Positions 4,434 through 64,000 of a stretch of 64,000 bases of DNA are shown one piece after another (within the stretch, counting starts at the first letter, position 1; every line of letters starts with the position of its first letter). Under the pieces are notes generated by a model. It was given only the letters and a program-made list of their open reading frames with translations. It was not told where the DNA came from and searched no databases. The DNA comes from a virus, in the IMG/VR virus record IMGVR_UViG_3300049489_000400, positions 34,718 through 98,717 of that record; one strand, 5' to 3'. The position numbers and the translations under genes were made by a program.

Positions 4434-4696
4434 TCTATGACTTCTTTCTTGTTAGTATTAAGATTTTCATGAACTTCAATCATTCTATTCAAATAATCTC
4501 TAGCTTTCAATAAATCTGTTAAATTCTTAGCTTTTGTAGAACCAGGTCTTGTAAACCTGTCTAAATATCGCTTTACATTTTCTGAAGCCCAGATGTCTCC
4601 ATAATCAGTACCTTTTCTGTAGTTCAGGGAAATTTGATCAAATTCCTTATCTCCATACTTGGCTCTGTTAGATTTCTCTAATTCATTTACGTCCAT
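4430..4696 (-). CDS. Small DUF3310-like protein
   Basis: An 88-residue protein. Its second half reads ENVKRYLDRF, then DLLKARDYLNRMI. This matches the general pattern of the DUF3310 family of small phage proteins (a NxxKYLxR segment followed by DLxKAxxYLxxxI). Function in that family is not established; some members are annotated as nucleotide-kinase-related. It is coupled by short overlaps to the HD nucleotidase upstream and the UvsY-like candidate downstream. It lacks a P-loop, so no kinase activity can be claimed. Confidence 0.5.
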   Translation of the reverse strand: MDVNELEKSNRAKYGDKEFDQISLNYRKGTDYGDIWASENVKRYLDRFTRPGSTKAKNLTDLLKARDYLNRMIEVHENLNTNKKEVIE

Positions 4697-5283
4697 AACT
4701 CTTTATCTATTATTTCTTGTAAAATCGAAGTGTCCTTACCTTCTAAATAAGGAATCAATTCTTTACAAGAAAGTTTAACTTTCTCTACACAATAAAATTG
4801 TTGATTCAATAATGATGTATTGCCAAGATTTAATTCCTTCTTTAGGTAAAATAACATAGACAACCAGTCAGCCACCTTAACTATTTTCTTAACTAGGAAT
4901 GGGACTGAAGTCATTATGTCAGATAACAATTTTTCAGATTCTCTGTCCTTATTGAATTTAGCATTAACCTTATCTTTTATAATTAAGTCAAGCAAATTTC
5001 TCATTTCTTCACCGTAAGCATTTCCGTATTTCACTCCATGAACTATGTCTCCTGTGAACATCTCATCAAAATCGTGAAATATAGCATAAGTTGTTATTTG
5101 AAGCTTCAAATTTATGTCATCTTCATTCAGGATTTCCTCAGCAAGTAATCTGCTTACCATAGCCACAAAGAATGAATGATGAGCAACAGTTTCGTCTTTG
5201 ATTCTATTCAAACCATTCCATCTGACCATATTGTTAAGTTGGTCAAAATCTGGATCATGAAAAATCTTATCAATTATATTCAT
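4687..5283 (-). CDS. HD-domain 5'-deoxynucleotidase-like phosphohydrolase (YfbR type)
   Basis: A 198-residue HD-superfamily protein. The metal ligands are visible: H35/H36 in AHHS, H70-D71 in FHDFDE, and a late Asp in KVADWLS. RWNG near the N-terminus and the AHHS motif are typical of YfbR-type nucleotidases. These remove the 5' phosphate from deoxynucleoside monophosphates; related phage HD enzymes such as DatZ hydrolyse a specific dNTP. Its position between the polymerase and recombination genes, with a ThyA-family enzyme nearby, suggests nucleotide-pool control. This fits a phage that replaces one of its bases. Substrate cannot be read from the sequence. Confidence 0.8.
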   Translation of the reverse strand: MNIIDKIFHDPDFDQLNNMVRWNGLNRIKDETVAHHSFFVAMVSRLLAEEILNEDDINLKLQITTYAIFHDFDEMFTGDIVHGVKYGNAYGEEMRNLLDLIIKDKVNAKFNKDRESEKLLSDIMTSVPFLVKKIVKVADWLSMLFYLKKELNLGNTSLLNQQFYCVEKVKLSCKELIPYLEGKDTSILQEIIDKELWT

Positions 5284-8600: not shown

Positions 8601-9203
8601 TATTTCATTTTTTACAAATAGCTTTATATCGAATAAAGAATGGTGTTCATCATCCTGATTATATTCGTAAGCTACTGATATTGTTTCTCCAAGGATAGAT
8701 TTTACACCCTTCTTTTTACAAGCTAATTGAAAAGGTAAAGTTGCAGCTAATGTATTTTTATCAGACAGACCTAAAATCTTCTGACCTAAGAAAACTGTTT
8801 TAGCTACCCACTGTTCTGGTTCTGCTGAGCCGTTTAATAACTCGTATCCAGTATGGACTCCTAAGTGGATAAAATCTATTTCCAAATCTGAATCGTACGA
8901 ACCAACATTTATGAATTCTTTGAACTCTGGGATAAAAATATCTTCATTGTATTCATCCTTCTTTGTCTTTTTAGAAGAATAATAGAACTTGTCTCCCCAC
9001 TTAAATAATATGTGAGTAATATCTTCCTCATAGATTCTGTAGAACTCTTCTTCAGTAAGAATGAAGGAAAAATCATTCGATATGACCTTTCCTTCTTTCT
9101 CTTCTACAAAAACTAATTTCCCAAGTCCTTCTATTTCTACAATATTCCCTTCAATATTGCATTTTATAGATTTTTGTTCAATCCAGTTTTTTAATTCTTT
9201 CAT
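5604..9203 (-). CDS. Family C DNA polymerase (DnaE-like alpha subunit)
   Basis: A 1199-residue bacterial-type replicative polymerase. The N-terminal PHP region has HLGVHTGYE at about residues 113-121. The catalytic core shows GPGRGSAGGSLVAYLLG, then LPDIDIDF with the active-site aspartates at about 512-518, and RPGPMDSNAHKDF. It also has YVYQEQIMQAMV and YGFNRSHAAAYALMGYW. A C-terminal OB-type strand pattern follows (ATIVGRIMYIKHLKYKQSK). All core motifs look intact, so it should be an active polymerase. Whether the PHP domain still proofreads is not decidable here; no separate exonuclease domain is obvious. T4-type phages use a family B polymerase, so this is a mosaic feature. It overlaps the ThyA-like gene by one base. 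Confidence 0.95.
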   Translation of the reverse strand: MKELKNWIEQKSIKCNIEGNIVEIEGLGKLVFVEEKEGKVISNDFSFILTEEEFYRIYEEDITHILFKWGDKFYYSSKKTKKDEYNEDIFIPEFKEFINVGSYDSDLEIDFIHLGVHTGYELLNGSAEPEQWVAKTVFLGQKILGLSDKNTLAATLPFQLACKKKGVKSILGETISVAYEYNQDDEHHSLFDIKLFVKNEIGWKNLLRIGKFINVDNDKFVSEEDFLNHSEGLICVIPTDSYFNSNIKNDIGRKMIKKYKKIFKGDLYYQIDSVEFDDDSVDIQNLRNIRYYMDNYSDVLKPVLINDSYYIEKSDYKIKSVLNKVDKKTQLSSSDQYYKTIDETLDKLMPHFSKNPDKFDLILESVSNTVEIAEKCDYMIDTGNHKLPKFEHPDSESLYHELLEKGFQRKVIDKFPDDEDKIIQYYERLEEENSVIVGAGFVDYFLILWDIVEWCKTKDILVGPGRGSAGGSLVAYLLGIIEIDPIQYNLLFERFLNKTRVSGERAKSADALPDIDIDFEGLRRGDVKRYIEEKYTYNNVCSIGTYARMKVKSALKDFSRVSGVSFQDANFATKEIPDVIGKSSWGDIFENAVEKPVLKKFVQNNAEVCDLVRISINQPKTSSIHASAVLIVPKQDKSGNPMTIYDWMPVKKIDDQLVSEWEGKFIDAAGFLKADILGIAQLDKFRNTLDLIKKNRGKKVNLNKIKIDIPSVMEFFKNGWNEDVFQFGTSGLKTYSKQVKPDGVEDLISMNALFRPGPMDSNAHKDFAEIKHGKKKPVYDPFLKEVTKNTFGLYVYQEQIMQAMVVAGGLSLAESDQVRTYMKKFDKENLNLFKSRFVEYYNNLLGGDKEEDAVKIWDKMNAFSSYGFNRSHAAAYALMGYWCQYLKVKYPLEFWTASLNFANYEEEVPNRISEIRKIGSDIQIKPPCVNKSDLFFVGFPDDNSIYWSLTKIKNVGDVAARVILNERNQNGDFSDLEDFINRVPKNKVNKRVVKALIIAGAFDNIGGQYGLKIDEEKVRKSLLEFHANLTKSEPYPEVLNENSNSNWYWVTEQKALTGFGDINFLSLLQKYEKKSKIKNLVKNYVSAEEYDKKSYKELKSPKEATIVGRIMYIKHLKYKQSKLPYARVSIESNNVVMILTVWNDCYERVLEKMEKLEAKKSLIAVNCEINYQKEYGKSLNSISERRGSTRNRTEFLVIN

Positions 9204-10393
9204 TACATTTTTCCAATTGGAGAAGTCAAATTAACAGAAACTATCTCTTTGTCTTTAACCTTAGAAGCAAAGAAATTAACAGCTAATGCTATTATATCTA
9301 ACGATGGGTAAAAGTTAGAAAGATTAGATATTTTGTCAATCGTTTTCCACTTGTCTGAGTCAGTTCTCGAAGTCGATTTGTATTCTACATACATCATCAA
9401 AAGATCATAAACCAAATGAAGATATTTTGAGAAATGCATCAATGTTTGCTCTTCTGTTTCTGTTATTCTTTTTCCAGACTTTATTGAGTCTATGATCATG
9501 CTAAGGAAATAATCTACCTCTGCTAATCTAGGTTCAATTGATTCTGAATCGAAATTCATATCCATTCTTGCTGGAACAAATACATCGTACAAATCTTCAA
9601 ACTGACCATTACTCAACTGAACCTCATCATACATTTTCCAAGCAATAGGATTATCATTATATATATGAAGACTTTGAGAATTGTGAGTTTGAGTGCCTAA
9701 CTCAATACCTAAAATGTTAGCCATAATTTCAGTCAAGAAACTGAATTGGAAAACATTAGTGGGTAAACCCCAATGTAAATCATTACTTCTGTTAGAAATA
9801 GTCGTTCTCAATTTTCCATTTCTGATTTTCAAGAATACCATATCGTTACAAGGCAAATCCTTAGATTTAGTTCCTAAGTCCAAATCTGCATTCCAAATCT
9901 GCATAACTGCTCTTCTGGTTTCAGAATCTTTATGAAGGTCTTTTAGGGTCTGAAGAATCTGATCAACACCTTTATTCATTTGCTCTACTGCGTGACCATT
10001 ATTCTCTGGTGAGGTAGGTAAAGTCCTATCGAAAGAGGAAACACCATGTTTTCTCAGTCTAAACCCATATGGAGCATGGAAATTAACCCCATCGTCAGAA
10101 TAATTCTTCATATTAGAATTGAAGATATCAAGAAATGCTACATCTTTCTCTCCTTTGAAAATCCAAATAGCTTCAGCAAGAAGGAAAAATATGTTTATAT
10201 CTCTACCATTGTTTCCTACACAACGTCTGTACGGATTAGTGATTGTTGTCTTGAAGTCTATAATTTCTTTAGTATCCCCATTTCTGCTCTCTACAGAATC
10301 TCCATTCTCAATAACGTACTTGTTTATGAAAGGATAAGTTGAAGAGAAATTACTTGTCACAACAGAATCATTAATAATATTTTTCAAAGTCAT
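9203..10393 (-). CDS. Thymidylate synthase-family enzyme; possible dUMP hydroxymethylase
   Basis: A 396-residue ThyA-family protein, much longer than bacterial ThyA (about 264). Family features are EAIWIFKG at about 74, the phosphate-binding pair RR at 160-161, the catalytic Cys182 in LPCND, RSNDLHWGLPTN ending in the uracil-reading Asn213, and SLHIYNDN at 241-248. Asn213 rather than Asp argues for dUMP rather than dCMP as substrate. The residue after the catalytic Cys is Asn where canonical ThyA has His. The long form and a hypermodification-type gene elsewhere in the window make a 5-hydroxymethyl-dUMP synthase plausible. Ordinary dTMP synthesis remains possible. The gene directly precedes the DNA polymerase. 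Confidence 0.85.
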   Translation of the reverse strand: MTLKNIINDSVVTSNFSSTYPFINKYVIENGDSVESRNGDTKEIIDFKTTITNPYRRCVGNNGRDINIFFLLAEAIWIFKGEKDVAFLDIFNSNMKNYSDDGVNFHAPYGFRLRKHGVSSFDRTLPTSPENNGHAVEQMNKGVDQILQTLKDLHKDSETRRAVMQIWNADLDLGTKSKDLPCNDMVFLKIRNGKLRTTISNRSNDLHWGLPTNVFQFSFLTEIMANILGIELGTQTHNSQSLHIYNDNPIAWKMYDEVQLSNGQFEDLYDVFVPARMDMNFDSESIEPRLAEVDYFLSMIIDSIKSGKRITETEEQTLMHFSKYLHLVYDLLMMYVEYKSTSRTDSDKWKTIDKISNLSNFYPSLDIIALAVNFFASKVKDKEIVSVNLTSPIGKM

Positions 10394-11623: not shown

Positions 11624-12205
11624 ATCTTCTTGATAACTTACTGAAAACTCTCTAACTTCTGTATTGTTATTCAGTAAATAATCTTTAAGTATTTTCAAAT
11701 TTATTTTATTCGTTTCAGTTGGGTCTAATTTACTATTTTTGAAAATCTTCTCAATCTTAGTTTTATCAGCACCCTTTAGATGGAATTTTATCATCTTTCT
11801 TTCTTGACCTTTAAATAGGCTCAATACATCGAAACCGTCAATTACAAATTCCATATTTTCCGCATCAAGAATTTCTTTATGCTCTCTTCCATAATCAAAG
11901 TTAATTTGAGACATAGGAATCATTTTAACTTTATTTATGTCTTTGATGAAGTCTCTTGATTTATTCAATAATGCGCTTCTAAGATAGGCTTCCATCGGAA
12001 CTGGCTTACAACGTCCTGTTTTCTTGTACTCTGCCCATTTCTTAGCGTACATCTTAATAGAAGTGAACAATTTCTCCTTTAATTCTTGAACAATATCTTG
12101 TTTCTCCATTCCGATATTGTTTTCAGACCAAATCTTGTCTGCATAATACTTCGCTAAATGCTCGAACTTGAAGTAGTATCTTTCTGTTAAAGTCATCTTA
12201 TTCAT
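11621..12205 (-). CDS. Sigma-factor-like protein (gp55-type candidate)
   Basis: A 194-residue protein. A sigma region 2-like segment reads KQDIVQELKEKLFTSIKMY, then MEAYLRSALLNKSRDFIKDI, as in ECF and phage sigma factors. The C-terminal part (KGADKTKIEKIF, then NLKILKDYL) could be a short region 4-like helix-turn-helix. T4 gp55, the late sigma factor, is of similar size and likewise sits in the replication/recombination region. If correct, it would direct host RNA polymerase to phage promoters, perhaps for the virion genes. It overlaps the next gene upstream by 4 bases. Sequence signal is moderate; assignment is inference. Confidence 0.55.
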   Translation of the reverse strand: MNKMTLTERYYFKFEHLAKYYADKIWSENNIGMEKQDIVQELKEKLFTSIKMYAKKWAEYKKTGRCKPVPMEAYLRSALLNKSRDFIKDINKVKMIPMSQINFDYGREHKEILDAENMEFVIDGFDVLSLFKGQERKMIKFHLKGADKTKIEKIFKNSKLDPTETNKINLKILKDYLLNNNTEVREFSVSYQED

Positions 12206-12462
12206 GCTTCGAATGTTTCAGCGTTATCAAATAATTCCATTAACAATTCTCTCAAATCATCAATCTTCATCCAACCCACTAAATCATCGTTAACATAAAT
12301 ATCCCCTGATACAGGATTAGCATCGTCTTCATTCCATTTATAGAAATTGACTTTAATTTCATCACCCTCTTTTATTTGAATAGCGTTACCATCGATAATG
12401 GTTTGGGTGTTTCTTTCTGACTTTCTCGTTCTGATGAACTCAGTCGTACCAACTTTTGACAT
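12202..12462 (-). CDS. Hypothetical small acidic protein
   Basis: An 86-residue acidic protein with strand-rich pattern (DEIKVNFYKW, GDIYVNDDLVGWMKIDDL) and no recognised motif. It has a leader of about 45 bases downstream of the duplicated intergenic element (12507-12564), so it is likely the first gene of the unit that also contains the sigma-like gene. Function unknown; possibly a regulator given the company. Confidence 0.65.
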   Translation of the reverse strand: MSKVGTTEFIRTRKSERNTQTIIDGNAIQIKEGDEIKVNFYKWNEDDANPVSGDIYVNDDLVGWMKIDDLRELLMELFDNAETFEA

Positions 12463-12506
12463 AATTTACAGTTTAATAGTTTACAATAATAAAATTCTAA
12501 AGCGAA

Positions 12507-12564
12507 TTTCTAAACTATTTTTTAATAGGCAAAATTTTTTCCAAATTATTTTTAAAAAATTCTA
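12507..12564 (-). promoter_or_regulatory. Duplicated A/T-rich intergenic element, copy B (candidate promoter)
   Basis: Second copy of the element described at 11567-11623, matching it over about 57 bases with only scattered differences. It overlaps the last codons of the gene ending at 12552 and precedes the gene starting at 12462. In copy A, A-rich and T-rich arms form an imperfect inverted repeat (AAAATTTTTTC/GAAAAATTTT), which is weaker here. Confidence 0.55.
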
Positions 12565-12977
12565 CGAATCTGTATTAAACCTACAGAAATATTTTCTGAA
12601 TTTTTTTCTATAATAGCTGTACTATCAAATAAATCGTAACTTATCAATCGACATCCTTGACCGTTATAAGAAAAATCTGACCCAATAAAGTAGTAGAAGT
12701 ATTTGTCTCTTTTGTTAAAACCTTCAGGCATATTTTCTGAACCGAAAAGTTGCTCAGTCATATCTCTTTTCAATTCTTCATCATCGAAAATAGAAATTAA
12801 CATATTCTTTTTAGATATGTCATTTATTTTGTCTTTTTTGAATTGTAGAACCTTTTTGAACTTAGCCTTATCATCTGACGATGGGTAAATCTTTGTTCTT
12901 AGTTCATACAATAAATATTCCAATTGCAATCTATTGAAATATTCAAGAATCGAAATATGTCTGTCTTTCGGCTTCAT
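12552..12977 (-). CDS. Hypothetical protein downstream of primase
   Basis: A 141-residue protein without a recognisable motif. The N-terminal half is helical and basic. The C-terminal half is strand-rich (YFYYFIGSDFSYNGQGCRLISY). It overlaps the primase gene by 4 bases and so is co-translated with it. Location suggests a replication-associated role, but nothing in the sequence defines one. Confidence 0.65.
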   Translation of the reverse strand: MKPKDRHISILEYFNRLQLEYLLYELRTKIYPSSDDKAKFKKVLQFKKDKINDISKKNMLISIFDDEELKRDMTEQLFGSENMPEGFNKRDKYFYYFIGSDFSYNGQGCRLISYDLFDSTAIIEKNSENISVGLIQIRRIF

Positions 12978-34540: not shown

Positions 34541-34915
34541 TTAGATCATCTCATTCAATCCTTCTCCGATAGTTACACGTCCAACGCTGAACTTGTATTC
34601 TTGAACTCGTACTCCATCGCTGAATTCTGGATCAGGGAAAGCACACAAAAGAATTACCGTGATAGCGCCAACAGGGAAATTTTTGCTTTCGTCACGTTCA
34701 ACAAAAACATTAACTTGATTGTTATTAGTACCGTCAACAGCCAAAGTTCCGTGATCAGTTTCAGGAACCAAAGCATATTTCTTTTGTTCGATATTATTAA
34801 CTTTCAAGATTGCCTTGATGTTAGTACAAACGCTAATATCTACAGCAGCACCTGCTTCGATAACTTGTACGCTAATTTTTTGGTCTTCACCTTGCTGAAA
34901 AGTTGTTGCAGCCAT
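34541..34915 (-). CDS. Small structural protein next to the tail tube
   Basis: A 124-residue, all-beta-looking protein with KISVQVIEAGAAVDIS and VNVFVERDESKNFPVGAITV. The sequence pattern suggests an immunoglobulin-like or BppU-like domain. It is cotranscribed with tube and sheath and precedes a terminator, so it is probably abundant in the virion (decoration of the tail or a second tube-like protein). No specific family identified. Confidence 0.55.
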   Translation of the reverse strand: MAATTFQQGEDQKISVQVIEAGAAVDISVCTNIKAILKVNNIEQKKYALVPETDHGTLAVDGTNNNQVNVFVERDESKNFPVGAITVILLCAFPDPEFSDGVRVQEYKFSVGRVTIGEGLNEMI

Positions 34916-49294: not shown

Positions 49295-49306
49295 TAATAT
49301 CTGTTA
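49295..49306 (-). promoter_or_regulatory. Intergenic motif TAACAGATATTA before the AAA+ gene
   Basis: Exact match to the motif at 43586-43597, again starting with the TAA stop of the preceding gene (glycosyltransferase), about 36 bases before the ATG of the AAA+ gene. Confidence 0.45.
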
Positions 49307-50734
49307 TTCAGTCCAATCTATTGGAAGTTCTACGTTGAAAAATTTAGTCATTACTTCTTCTGAATCTTTCAAAACCTTAGCTGAATTTTTACCCACTTCT
49401 AATTCTTTCAATCTGTTTTTATAGAATGCGATATCAATTACATCTTGCATATTATTTATTGGATCAAATAACATTTTAGCTAATCTGAAATTATGCTTAA
49501 CATCTTTTCTATATTGCTCATCTGACATTTTTTTAGCCTTATTCAAAGCCTCAGCGAATTGTTTAGGTGTTGCATCCCAAGGTATGAATATAGCTTTCAA
49601 TTCATCGTAAATTATGTCATCTATTTTACCCTTTTGTTTAACAAGACCTTTTGTGTCTCTCAAAACTGGATATGAACCGTTTATTATGGCTTCTATGGTG
49701 AAACCATTAAGGTGAGTATTTGAATATTGCGCATAATGTTTACTGAATGATGGGTCAATACAAAATTTAGAATTTTGCTGCATAAAATAAACATCGGAAC
49801 TTGACATGAATCCTTGATGCTCTAATCCGTACATTTCGGCTCTCTCCCAAAGACTCATACCTATATGCTCATCTAAACAATCAGGGTCAGTCTTTTTACT
49901 AACCATATATCTAGGTTTTTGTTTACCTCCTTCAGCGTCAGCCATCATATAATAAAGTTCTATCCCAGAACCAGCTGTAAATACAGTACTGCCCTTTTTC
50001 AAATGAGGAGTCATGGCTAATATGTCTTCCATCTTTTTCATAGATTTGAAAACATGAGCAGCGAAAAAATCAACTGGTCTTTCAGACATAGCCTTATAAG
50101 GTAATTTATCAGGCATATATCTTGAAGCGAAATTCAAGTATCTAGGAATAGCAATATTTTCACAACAATTATAGGCTGATGTATGTACACAGTCTAGGTA
50201 AGTTATTTTAGGTGCTAAATATCTAACCCAGCTTGTTCTAATGTCGTAATATCCGTCATGAACAGCAAAAACTTGTTTTATCCTTTTAGGTAAATCGAAA
50301 AATTTTGGCCAATCATGAAATCCTTTAGCTTCTTTAGTTTTAGTAGGCATAAAACTCCAAAACAATAAATCCGCATCCATTACAGCTTCATGCCATAATT
50401 CTAAAGCATTTTCTGCAAAAACAGGAATACGATTTGTATATGGAGGAAGAAACCAACCATAATAGGAATTTTTCCAGTAACCAGTAACTTCTGATTTCTC
50501 AAAACCTCCGTGTTGACTCTTATTGCTTTGTTTCGCTTGGAATACACCATCTTCAAATTCTTTTATTCTACGATGATATAAATCGACTGATATAGTCTTA
50601 TTATAAGTCAAAAATATAATGTCGACATCATGTCCCATTTCTTTAAAAGCCTTGACACGACCTTCAACATTTTGAACTATACCGCCATACTTTGCGACAT
50701 CAAAAGTACAAATTCTAATCTTTAACTTTTTCAT
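49304..50734 (-). CDS. GT-B type glycosyltransferase-like protein
   Basis: Starting at the ATG at 50734 gives 476 residues; an upstream start at 50776 would add a basic segment overlapping the previous gene and is less likely. The N-terminus KKLKIRICTFDVAKYGGIVQN, then VKAFKEMGHDVDIIFLTY has the Rossmann opening of GT4-type glycosyltransferases (G-G-I-x-x-x loop and GH-x-V). The C-terminal domain has FTIEAIINGSYPVLRDT, matching the donor-binding E-A-x-x-x-G-x-P-V region. Donor and acceptor are unknown; candidates are virion proteins or hydroxymethylated DNA bases. It is paired with a LmbE-like deacetylase just upstream. Confidence 0.7.
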   Translation of the reverse strand: MKKLKIRICTFDVAKYGGIVQNVEGRVKAFKEMGHDVDIIFLTYNKTISVDLYHRRIKEFEDGVFQAKQSNKSQHGGFEKSEVTGYWKNSYYGWFLPPYTNRIPVFAENALELWHEAVMDADLLFWSFMPTKTKEAKGFHDWPKFFDLPKRIKQVFAVHDGYYDIRTSWVRYLAPKITYLDCVHTSAYNCCENIAIPRYLNFASRYMPDKLPYKAMSERPVDFFAAHVFKSMKKMEDILAMTPHLKKGSTVFTAGSGIELYYMMADAEGGKQKPRYMVSKKTDPDCLDEHIGMSLWERAEMYGLEHQGFMSSSDVYFMQQNSKFCIDPSFSKHYAQYSNTHLNGFTIEAIINGSYPVLRDTKGLVKQKGKIDDIIYDELKAIFIPWDATPKQFAEALNKAKKMSDEQYRKDVKHNFRLAKMLFDPINNMQDVIDIAFYKNRLKELEVGKNSAKVLKDSEEVMTKFFNVELPIDWTE

Positions 50735-51401
50735 AATACTCTTCTGGTAACATCTTCTTAATATAACCCTGCTCAAAGAACAATAATGAACTTTGGGATT
50801 TATAGAAGTCCTTTACAAATTGAAATTTATTCGCTCCATCCTCTTCTTTGAGTCCTGTCAATTCATGAACTTGTTTCAACTTGAATTCAGAATTAGTTAA
50901 GCCTACAAAATACTCTTTATTTCTTCTTTTGTATGAATGAGGGAAATCACGGTAGAATAAGTGTGAGTGTTTTTCAGTTAAATTTCTAACTAACCAATGA
51001 AATGGATGACCTACTCCTAAACAAGTTACAATCAAGAATCCATCATCTGACAATACTTCAAGAATCCCATCTAATTCTGAAGCTAGTTTCAGCATTTTAT
51101 TTTCTCCTATTTTCATAAGGCAAAAACTCATAGCTGAATCATCCGACATCAGTTTTTTATCAGAATAGTATTCTTTATGAAAATTTTCAGAACTTACTTT
51201 AGTCCTAAGAGTGAAAAGCTCCATGTCGAACTCTTCGCAAAGTAATCTGTCTTCTTCAAGTCTTTTTTCGTTGTACTCTACGGTCAACATTATAACTTGA
51301 TCATATTTGTCTCTTTCTTTCAAGAAGTTAGCCGCACTAAAGATGATATCATCTGAATGGGGCTGAATCAAAAGCAAATTTCGCTTTTTATTTTTAGCCA
51401 T
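50715..51401 (-). CDS. LmbE/PIG-L-like deacetylase
   Basis: A 228-residue protein. The zinc-site motif IQPHSDDIIFSA (PHxDD at residues 14-18) and a later HPFHWLV are the hallmarks of LmbE/PIG-L N-acetylglucosaminide deacetylases. Spacing between the motifs fits the family. It sits next to a glycosyltransferase (20-base overlap), suggesting removal of an acetyl group from a sugar transferred by that enzyme. Both lie in the head module. The actual substrate is unknown. Confidence 0.75.
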   Translation of the reverse strand: MAKNKKRNLLLIQPHSDDIIFSAANFLKERDKYDQVIMLTVEYNEKRLEEDRLLCEEFDMELFTLRTKVSSENFHKEYYSDKKLMSDDSAMSFCLMKIGENKMLKLASELDGILEVLSDDGFLIVTCLGVGHPFHWLVRNLTEKHSHLFYRDFPHSYKRRNKEYFVGLTNSEFKLKQVHELTGLKEEDGANKFQFVKDFYKSQSSLLFFEQGYIKKMLPEEYYEKVKD

Positions 51402-62392: not shown

Positions 62393-62707
62393 TTAGGCTG
62401 CATCAAGAATAACGTCATCATTGAAAACATCAATAACAACATATAAACCTTCTCCAACCAAAGTGAAGTAATCAATCAAGTCTTTCTCTGTAAGAGTCAA
62501 ACCTATTTCGATAGGACAAGATGTTCCTGTTCCTGCTAATGCATTAATTTTGTTTGCAATAGCATTTGAAGAATCTTTAGTATCAAAATTTGAAACTACA
62601 AATTCTTTTTCTTTAGTACAAACAACTCTTATTTCCAATTCCGTTCCTGCGTCTGGTCCAGAGTTGATTTTCACCTTGTATAATCTAGTTCCTGAATTTG
62701 ATTTCAT
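62393..62707 (-). CDS. Hypothetical small protein
   Basis: A 104-residue, beta-rich protein (TRLYKVKINSGPDAGTELEI; GLYVVIDVFNDDVILDAA). No family recognised. It precedes the acidic portal-associated gene by 23 bases and follows the hypermodification-type gene by about 50 bases containing a 14-base palindrome. It could be a small structural protein; nothing is certain. Confidence 0.55.
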   Translation of the reverse strand: MKSNSGTRLYKVKINSGPDAGTELEIRVVCTKEKEFVVSNFDTKDSSNAIANKINALAGTGTSCPIEIGLTLTEKDLIDYFTLVGEGLYVVIDVFNDDVILDAA

Positions 62708-62758: not shown

Positions 62759-63775
62759 TCAAGAGTTTGGTTCAAACTTACTTCTCTGTTTGCCTAAACC
62801 TACCTTCATCTTCCAATACTTACTAAACTCACACAACCACATTTCTATCTGATGTAGCGTGAGTTCTCCAGATTTCTTAACTTCGTATCTACTCAAATTT
62901 TTATTCCAATGTAAATACTTAAAATCGCCATATTCCTTTAATTTCTTCTTTGCTATATCAGTTAAAATATGAATAGCATCTTCTTGCTCCTTACCTACTA
63001 ATGCTGGGAATATCAACCTAACTCCTAAACTCGCACCTGGGCCAACATTCGTATAATCGTTCTGATCAAACTTCATAATTTCGATTCCAGAATATCTAGG
63101 AGCATATGTAAAATCTTGATAAAATTCATGAGCAATAAATTGAGCAACGCCTGGTATAGTTCTAAAGAACGAAACTATTTGCTCTGGGTCTTCAGAATTT
63201 AAACACAATTTGTTTATCTTCTTAATGTTAGAATGTATCATAGGAACTGTAACGAAGCAATAACATTCATCCCTAGTTCCTTTTGCGAATGTAGAATTTA
63301 TGTAATAAGCATTCGTAAAAGGGCTTTCACCAGTACTTCTAAATTCTGATACTAAATCAAAAAATTCTTGTTTATCGAATTTGTAATATGAAGGCATTTT
63401 ACCTTTGAAGGATTTAGATTTAACTGAGCCTATAAAATCAAAAAGTTCAGGCTTGTTAAAAATCCTGAACAATAACAGCTTCCATATTATCTCTAATCGG
63501 TCTTTTTCTTTCAATAATACATTTTGTATTTGCCACTGAGAATGTCTGTCTAATTCTCTGTAAACATTCGTGAACTTATTTCTTTGGAAAATTTTATCTT
63601 TAGACCAAGGTTGATTTTCCTTCAATATGAATCTCTTATGCCAGACTTCTTGTCTGTCGAACATAGTCTCAAAGAATAAATCTAAATTTTCCTCACAAAT
63701 GTCTAAATCAGTTGAGGGCAAAAGATGCCCCCAACTCTTCTTATCTAATCTATTTTGCTTTTCGGAACTCATCAA
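62759..63775 (-). CDS. Thymine hypermodification protein (HMUDK-helical / aGPT-PPlase-like)
   Basis: A 338-residue protein. The segments RFILKENQPWSKDKI (48-62), KFTNVYRELDR (67-77) and LLFRIFNKPE (101-110) match the signature of the helical domain of 5-hmdU DNA kinases and alpha-glutamyl/putrescinyl-thymine pyrophosphorylases (PWTxDxIL, FTNVxRExDR, fRxFN). The later IPGVAQFIAHEFYQDF and NVGPGASLGVRLIF also fit that family's glycosylase-like second half. Known relatives help convert 5-hydroxymethyluracil in DNA into larger thymine derivatives. No P-loop kinase domain is fused here. It overlaps the glucosaminidase gene by 26 bases; ATG 63772 is an alternative start. Confidence 0.82.
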   Translation of the reverse strand: MMSSEKQNRLDKKSWGHLLPSTDLDICEENLDLFFETMFDRQEVWHKRFILKENQPWSKDKIFQRNKFTNVYRELDRHSQWQIQNVLLKEKDRLEIIWKLLLFRIFNKPELFDFIGSVKSKSFKGKMPSYYKFDKQEFFDLVSEFRSTGESPFTNAYYINSTFAKGTRDECYCFVTVPMIHSNIKKINKLCLNSEDPEQIVSFFRTIPGVAQFIAHEFYQDFTYAPRYSGIEIMKFDQNDYTNVGPGASLGVRLIFPALVGKEQEDAIHILTDIAKKKLKEYGDFKYLHWNKNLSRYEVKKSGELTLHQIEMWLCEFSKYWKMKVGLGKQRSKFEPNS

Positions 63776-64000
63776 TCAAACTGATTATTTTATTCCTATA
63801 ATTTTTGTCTGATGCATAAACTCTGGAGAGAAAGTCCAAATATTCGTCTTGGTTAGTACAACTTTTAGCAAACTTGGTTTGCCATATTGCGTAGTCTATT
63901 ATACATAATTTCCAATTATCAAAATCAGCATAACCATTCTTACTTCCATTACTTGCAGTCGCTCTTTGTCCTGGATGTTTCATACCAAGAAGGTTATTAT
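63750..64000 (-). CDS. Glucosaminidase-domain protein, C-terminal fragment
   Basis: The frame is open through the right edge of the window, so only the C-terminal ~82 residues are seen. They begin NNLLGMKHPGQR, then SKNGYADFDNWKLCIIDYA and DFLSRVYASDKNYRNKI. This matches the end of bacterial and phage N-acetylglucosaminidase (GH73-like) domains (NNlfGm, gYadYxsw, YAxDpxY). The Met at 63983 lies within this motif and is not the true start. It probably cleaves the glycan strand, as a second lysin or a virion-associated enzyme. Confidence 0.75.
   Translation of the reverse strand, partial: NNLLGMKHPGQRATASNGSKNGYADFDNWKLCIIDYAIWQTKFAKSCTNQDEYLDFLSRVYASDKNYRNKIISLIDEFRKAK

Follow-up and report, generated by a model that had tools for sequence, protein, structure and literature searches.

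We describe a phage genome that codes for a standalone protein of the HMUDK_hel family (PF18723), here called hel, and that lacks both a 5-hmdU DNA kinase and an amino acid:DNA transferase (ADDT). The window, that is the whole 64,000-nucleotide stretch analyzed (positions 34,718 to 98,717 of IMG/VR record IMGVR_UViG_3300049489_000400), is part of a virus record of 98,717 bp. In phages such as M6 and SP10 hel works with a 5-hmdU kinase, and the experimentally known thymine hypermodifications of M6, ViI and W-14 run via phosphorylated 5-hmdU. The protein is a true member of its family; of interest are the kinase-free setting, conserved within a phage lineage, and a testable sugar-based alternative to the kinase. 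We propose, seeing the balance as even, that hel acts on 5-hmdU in DNA together with glycosyltransferases rather than with a kinase, and that here a GT-B glycosyltransferase and a deacetylase would generate an amino-sugar thymine. A lineage having a hydroxymethylase and hel and lacking the kinase would show that hel is more than a domain of a kinase and would suggest that thymine hypermodification has a second branch, based on sugars.

The hel Protein

The hel gene is located on the minus strand (62759..63772) and encodes 337 amino acids from an ATG at 63772; the open reading frame (62759-63775) can also be read from a TTG at 63775 (338 amino acids), the ATG being the more likely start. Residues 30-325 match PF18723 with E = 4.1e-48 (164.6 bits versus a cut-off of 25), covering positions 3-276 of the 281 in the profile, and in PHROG the protein matches phrog_2396 (E = 2.9e-44). 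The preliminary description had placed the protein in the 5-hmdU kinase helical-domain group on the basis of the motifs PWSKDKI, KFTNVYRELDR, LLFRIFN and GPGA, each of which is found in the ORF, and the assignment is backed by both the PF18723 profile and the fold. The aGPT-PPlase family, named in the same description, gave no profile match: PF18724 (ADDT, the former aGPT-PPlase clade 2) does not match hel, PF18723 being the sole Pfam family at E ≤ 1. In an alignment of 21 relatives that are 40-60% identical, PW, FT, RELD, HEF-Y, D-ND, GPG and CEF-KY are invariant or nearly so and E216, D239 and N242 are kept throughout; the main motifs recur in the kinase-linked hel proteins of M6 and SP10-like phages. 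The ORF, its motifs and its family match are confirmed far beyond chance.

No solved structure related to hel by sequence was found. The AlphaFold model is confident (pLDDT 89.8), and in a Foldseek search of BFVD its best viral match is the SP10 5-hmdU DNA kinase (E = 1.6e-14), the helical domain of W-14 matching with E = 1.2e-7. The SP10-type kinases (F8WQ30; SBSphiC, Goe26) thus resemble hel in fold and motifs, and SP10-type phages have a dUMP hydroxymethylase and a dUTPase in the genome, as here; in these phages, however, a P-loop kinase precedes hel in one fused protein, whereas the protein in the window is standalone in a kinase-less genome and, as had been described, carries no fused kinase domain.

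After the helical-domain proteins an amino acid:DNA transferase appears among the fold matches (Foldseek E = 1.2e-3, prob 1.00). Alignment of hel with the ADDT profile by hhalign gave a weak, collinear match (P = 0.009, probability 4.4%) that was reached by 0/150 column permutations. In the PDB, Foldseek found no match to the model at E 1e-3 or better; the best folds are HhH 8-oxoguanine glycosylases (MjaOgg, prob 0.69, and AGOG), with E 0.5 or worse. These are the only PDB folds somewhat alike, and they could mean that hel is a DNA glycosylase and removes a base from the DNA of host or phage. We consider this very unlikely and rejected a plain glycosylase, the PDB matches being without significance: the conserved motifs are common to the kinase-fused hel of the SP10 type, and what co-occurs with hel is a hydroxymethylase and modifying enzymes.

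A match to phrog_800 would have made hel a "terminase small subunit." This name was rejected because phrog_800 is a misnamed kinase-hel fusion: M6 gp54, ViI gp61 and the N-terminus of Goe26_01450 all belong to it and are PF18748 5-hmdU DNA kinases. In the public records "terminase small subunit" is the name of the 5-hmdU DNA kinase in M6 (L039:16686-17249), ViI (L042:38203-38865) and phi W-14 (L102:31347-32132) as well as in phrog_800.

Between hel and a 572-aa pre-portal protein there is a gene for 104 amino acids (62393-62707) that is unmatched in the 8 relative genomes compared, in a stretch that is otherwise conserved among the relatives.

A Closed Genome Without the Kinase

A 9-bp sequence is common to the two ends of the record, and joining them continues the reading frame of a Glucosaminidase gene, the C-terminal piece of which lies at 63750..63983 on the minus strand. 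The genome is therefore circular and complete, and absences from it count; a fragmentary genome was for the same reason rejected as the explanation of the missing kinase. IMG/VR classes the record as linear, yet it closes (window 63750-64000 plus record positions 1-259, L002). The minus strand carries nearly all of the genes. Since the closest cultured relatives by terminase are Bacteroides phages (DAC19 and others, 35% identity), the host is probably a species of the Bacteroidota. The genome also codes for an RmlC-type dTDP-4-dehydrorhamnose 3,5-epimerase (L003:8276-8821) and for an acyl-carrier-protein-like gene product (L003:2252-2506).

The preliminary description had expected the kinase or the transfer partners to be encoded elsewhere in the genome or to be replaced by genes in the window. 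The first of these expectations was not borne out. In the closed circle Pfam found no match to PF18748 (the P-loop 5-hmdU DNA kinase), neither in hel nor elsewhere, and none to PF18724 (ADDT). Kinase HMMs built from four, eight and ten sequences, starting with known kinases to which the diverged kinases of relatives were then added, had the UvrD helicase as best match in the genome and gave nothing credible. The proteins found by a Walker-A scan are UvrD helicase, RecA, DnaB and two AAA ATPases. The genome is without a 5-hmdU DNA kinase and without an amino acid:DNA transferase. Replacement by genes in the window is the better alternative, the candidates being the GT-B and PIG-L-type genes described below.

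A 5-hmdU kinase that has diverged beyond recognition or is supplied by the host would leave the classical route of kinase, amino-acid transfer and trimming in place. There are precedents for an overlooked kinase: PF18748 misses the diverged kinases of four related records (G029, G014, G016 and G004), and in Microbacterium phage Lucky3 the gene adjoining hel codes for a P-loop kinase of another family, PF18751. We nevertheless think a hidden kinase unlikely, given that HMMs including the diverged kinases found nothing better than UvrD, that the Walker-A proteins found can all be assigned to helicases, RecA, DnaB or AAA ATPases, that ADDT is missing too, and that six further near-complete kinase-less records and G027 agree.

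Hydroxymethylase and Nucleotide Pool

A thymidylate synthase homologue of 396 amino acids (9203..10393, minus strand) is 39.5% identical over residues 14-259 to gp29 of SPO1, a dUMP hydroxymethylase. In a phylogenetic tree it groups with the hydroxymethylases, apart from the true thymidylate synthases, with a support of 100/100; the hydroxymethylase side comprises the SPO1, SP8, Goe26, M6 and ViI enzymes and six relatives, and a mis-framed sequence and long branches were left out. The alignment shows that the enzyme lacks the Trp of the thymidylate synthase IWD motif, which we take to belong to the active site of that enzyme, has the (F/Y)SDDG motif of the hydroxymethylases and retains the Asn that presumably recognizes uracil. 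It is an enzyme of the dUMP-hydroxymethylase type, predicted to make hmdUMP.

An HD-domain 5′-deoxynucleotidase, YfbR-like (4687..5283, minus strand; PF12917, E = 1.6e-19), is matched by phrog_6047 (E = 1.7e-5), the family of M6 gp59, which is of the same broad kind and adjoins the M6 hydroxymethylase. The window enzyme possibly clears dTMP/dTTP. Together with a dUTPase (record 12176-12640) it fits a replacement of thymine by hmdU. In cells infected with phi W-14, HmdUTP is present and dTTP is not, owing to a dTTPase (PMC5977210).

The suggestion of the preliminary description that the phage DNA carries modified thymines is strengthened by the dUMP-hydroxymethylase-type gene, which occurs here and in every near-complete relative.

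Like the genome described here, Pseudomonas phage M6 has a separate hel gene, a hydroxymethylase and an HD nucleotidase. The M6 set consists of gp51 (ADDT), gp52 (PLP), gp53 (radical SAM), gp54 (kinase), gp55 (hel), gp58 (hydroxymethylase) and gp59 (HD); here the kinase, ADDT, PLP and radical SAM partners are lacking, and GT-B and PIG-L are found instead.

Glycosyltransferase and Deacetylase Candidates

The candidate hmdU glycosyltransferase is encoded by a 490-aa ORF on the minus strand (49304..50776), in which an internal ATG near 50734 would give 477 amino acids. Its Pfam matches are all sub-threshold, and the assignment to a GT-B, GT4-like type comes from the predicted fold. The AlphaFold model, which is of low confidence (pLDDT 67.8), has in Foldseek 246 PDB matches at E ≤ 1e-3, the best being GT4 enzymes, including BshA and GtfA at the top (E 1e-9 to 1e-7); with the same low-confidence model T4 alpha-glucosyltransferase bound to hmU DNA is among the matches (E about 1e-7). 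Several of the best GT4 matches (TarM, SdgB, BshA, GtfA) use UDP-GlcNAc. T4 alpha-glucosyltransferase and the TAGT enzymes are glycosyltransferases for hydroxymethyl-pyrimidines in phage DNA, the role proposed here; in contrast to them, the window enzyme shows no detectable sequence similarity, would have hmdU as substrate and would work with a deacetylase.

The overlapping gene (50715..51401, minus strand) encodes a putative PIG-L-type (LmbE-like) zinc deacetylase of 228 amino acids, recognized by its zinc motifs PHSDD and HPxH (PHxDD ... HPxH), which are invariant in 10 relatives. The three best PDB matches of its profile are GlcNAc deacetylases of glycopeptide pathways, namely Dbv21 (E = 0.0036), 6iiy and Orf2*, the latter two with E-values of 0.33 and 0.46; PF02585 is matched in one relative only, with 0.086, which is below the Pfam cut-off. 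The overlapping GT-B/GT4-like and PIG-L-like genes resemble the pairs BshA/BshB and PIG-A/PIG-L, in which a GT4 N-acetylglucosaminyltransferase is combined with an LmbE-family deacetylase. The acceptors of these pairs are malate, inositol or a lipid, whereas the acceptor proposed here is DNA.

Glycosyl transfer to hmU in DNA is chemically sound: 5hmU can be glucosylated in vitro by T4 beta-glucosyltransferase (PMC4111573), and glycosylated derivatives of thymine occur in phage SP-15 (PMC5977210). Because the two genes are located 11-14 kb from hel, amid head genes, their products could however glycosylate virion proteins.

Gene Linkage in Related Phages

Ten related records exceed 85 kb (G000-G004, G008, G013, G017, G027 and G029). 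All ten contain hel together with the hydroxymethylase, and eight are without a kinase, kinase-like genes being present only in G029 (three) and G004 (one). A PIG-L-like protein is found in each of the 8 kinase-less records; it is adjoined by GT-B in 7 of them, and in G027 it is fused to a TAGT glycosyltransferase domain (PF20691, E = 3.5e-9). In G003, also kinase-less, a TAGT gene (E = 1.7e-14) overlaps hel by 4 bp.

In G029, ADDT and a DAO-type FAD enzyme are encoded directly upstream of hel, and in the partial record G014 the genes for the FAD enzyme, ADDT and hel are close together, a kinase-like gene being present as well. With these two records set against the rest, kinase/ADDT and GT/PIG-L at first appeared cleanly to exclude each other. 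This strict exclusion was given up, and we claim no statistic for it and use gene linkage instead, because two records break the pattern: G004 has GT and PIG-L besides its kinase-like gene, and the partial record G016 has one tight operon (L101:404-5342) for ADDT (PF18724, 28.2 bits versus a cut-off of 26.2), PIG-L, a radical-SAM/SPASM protein, TAGT, a 117-aa protein and hel, with the kinase gene just upstream. Since ADDT and PIG-L stand together in G016, one route does not exclude the other. The G016 operon is the richest hypermodification cluster seen in the lineage.

Outside the lineage, Brevibacterium phage LuckyBarnes has a hydroxymethylase homologue, two TAGT and hel in a row (gp38-gp41) and no kinase. 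Like the phage described here, this cultured phage combines hel with a thymidylate synthase-type hydroxymethylase homologue and glycosyltransferases in a kinase-less genome; it differs in that TAGT is contiguous with hel and PIG-L is absent, whereas here the glycosyltransferase is of the GT-B type and 12 kb from hel. In LuckyBarnes, being in culture, the link between hel and glycosyltransferase is directly testable. Where the upstream sequence of an M6-type locus is intact and long enough, the gene immediately upstream of hel is usually the kinase; a kinase, fused or adjacent, is the usual companion of the family but does not enter the definition of the PF18723 profile. Taken together, the neighbors in the relatives, in LuckyBarnes, in Lucky3 and in the M6-type loci indicate that hel travels with an enzyme modifying the hydroxymethyl group, either a kinase or a DNA glycosyltransferase.

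This linkage bears on the idea that hel acts alone on hmdU DNA, as a transferase or as a binder and protector, while GT and PIG-L have nothing to do with it and decorate the virion. The fold that hel may have in common with amino acid:DNA transferases and the position of the two genes amid head genes speak for such an arrangement. The informative neighbors of hel, however, are modifying enzymes, kinases or TAGT glycosyltransferases, and PIG-L belongs to the hel operon in G016 and, in G027, is joined in one protein to a member of a DNA-glycosyltransferase family, so that we regard hel acting alone as improbable.

That hel is the decaying relic of a lost hypermodification route, as the missing kinase and one in-frame TGA at the GPG motif of the G004 hel might suggest, is extremely unlikely: all 10 near-complete records have hel, 40-60% identical and with every motif intact, and it is about as conserved as the hydroxymethylase. 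The 52 aligned core genes contain no in-frame stop other than the TGA in the G004 hel (L007:6001-6987).

Proposed Route to an Amino-Sugar Thymine

In the route that we propose, the phage dUMP hydroxymethylase would form hydroxymethyl-dUMP while dUTPase and HD nucleotidase steer the pool, and 5-hydroxymethyluracil would, judging from the enzyme family and its residues, replace thymine in the phage DNA. The hel protein, with a fold that may resemble that of the amino acid:DNA transferases and, weakly, that of the HhH DNA glycosylases, would bind and present hmdU in DNA. Its likeliest partners here are the GT-B glycosyltransferase and the PIG-L-type deacetylase: from the gene association, GT-B may put an N-acetyl-hexosamine on the hydroxymethyl group, which PIG-L would then deacetylate to an amino-sugar thymine. 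Like the known hypermodified thymines, which typically have a free amine, the expected product would retain one. The modified base of the phage we infer from its genes.

This kinase-free reading is favored by the linkage of TAGT or PIG-L to hel in G003, G016 and LuckyBarnes and by the PIG-L-TAGT fusion in G027. It is weakened by the distance of GT and PIG-L from hel, by their head-gene setting and by their presence together with a kinase-like gene in G004, and also by the low confidence of the GT model and by both enzymes being below the Pfam cut-offs. More generally, HMUDK_hel could be an hmdU-handling module that serves kinases or DNA glycosyltransferases, this lineage making a previously unseen amino-sugar 5-hydroxymethyluracil via hydroxymethylase, glycosyltransferase and PIG-L deacetylase; we hold this tentatively, at somewhat less than an even chance.

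In a phage of another type (G031, L182:5922-10938) a hel of 416 amino acids occurs with a small nucleotidyltransferase-like protein, a dUTPase and a thymidylate synthase homologue of 230 amino acids. At its base-recognition site the latter has Asp, like the dCMP hydroxymethylases, and the hel of this phage may act on hmC.
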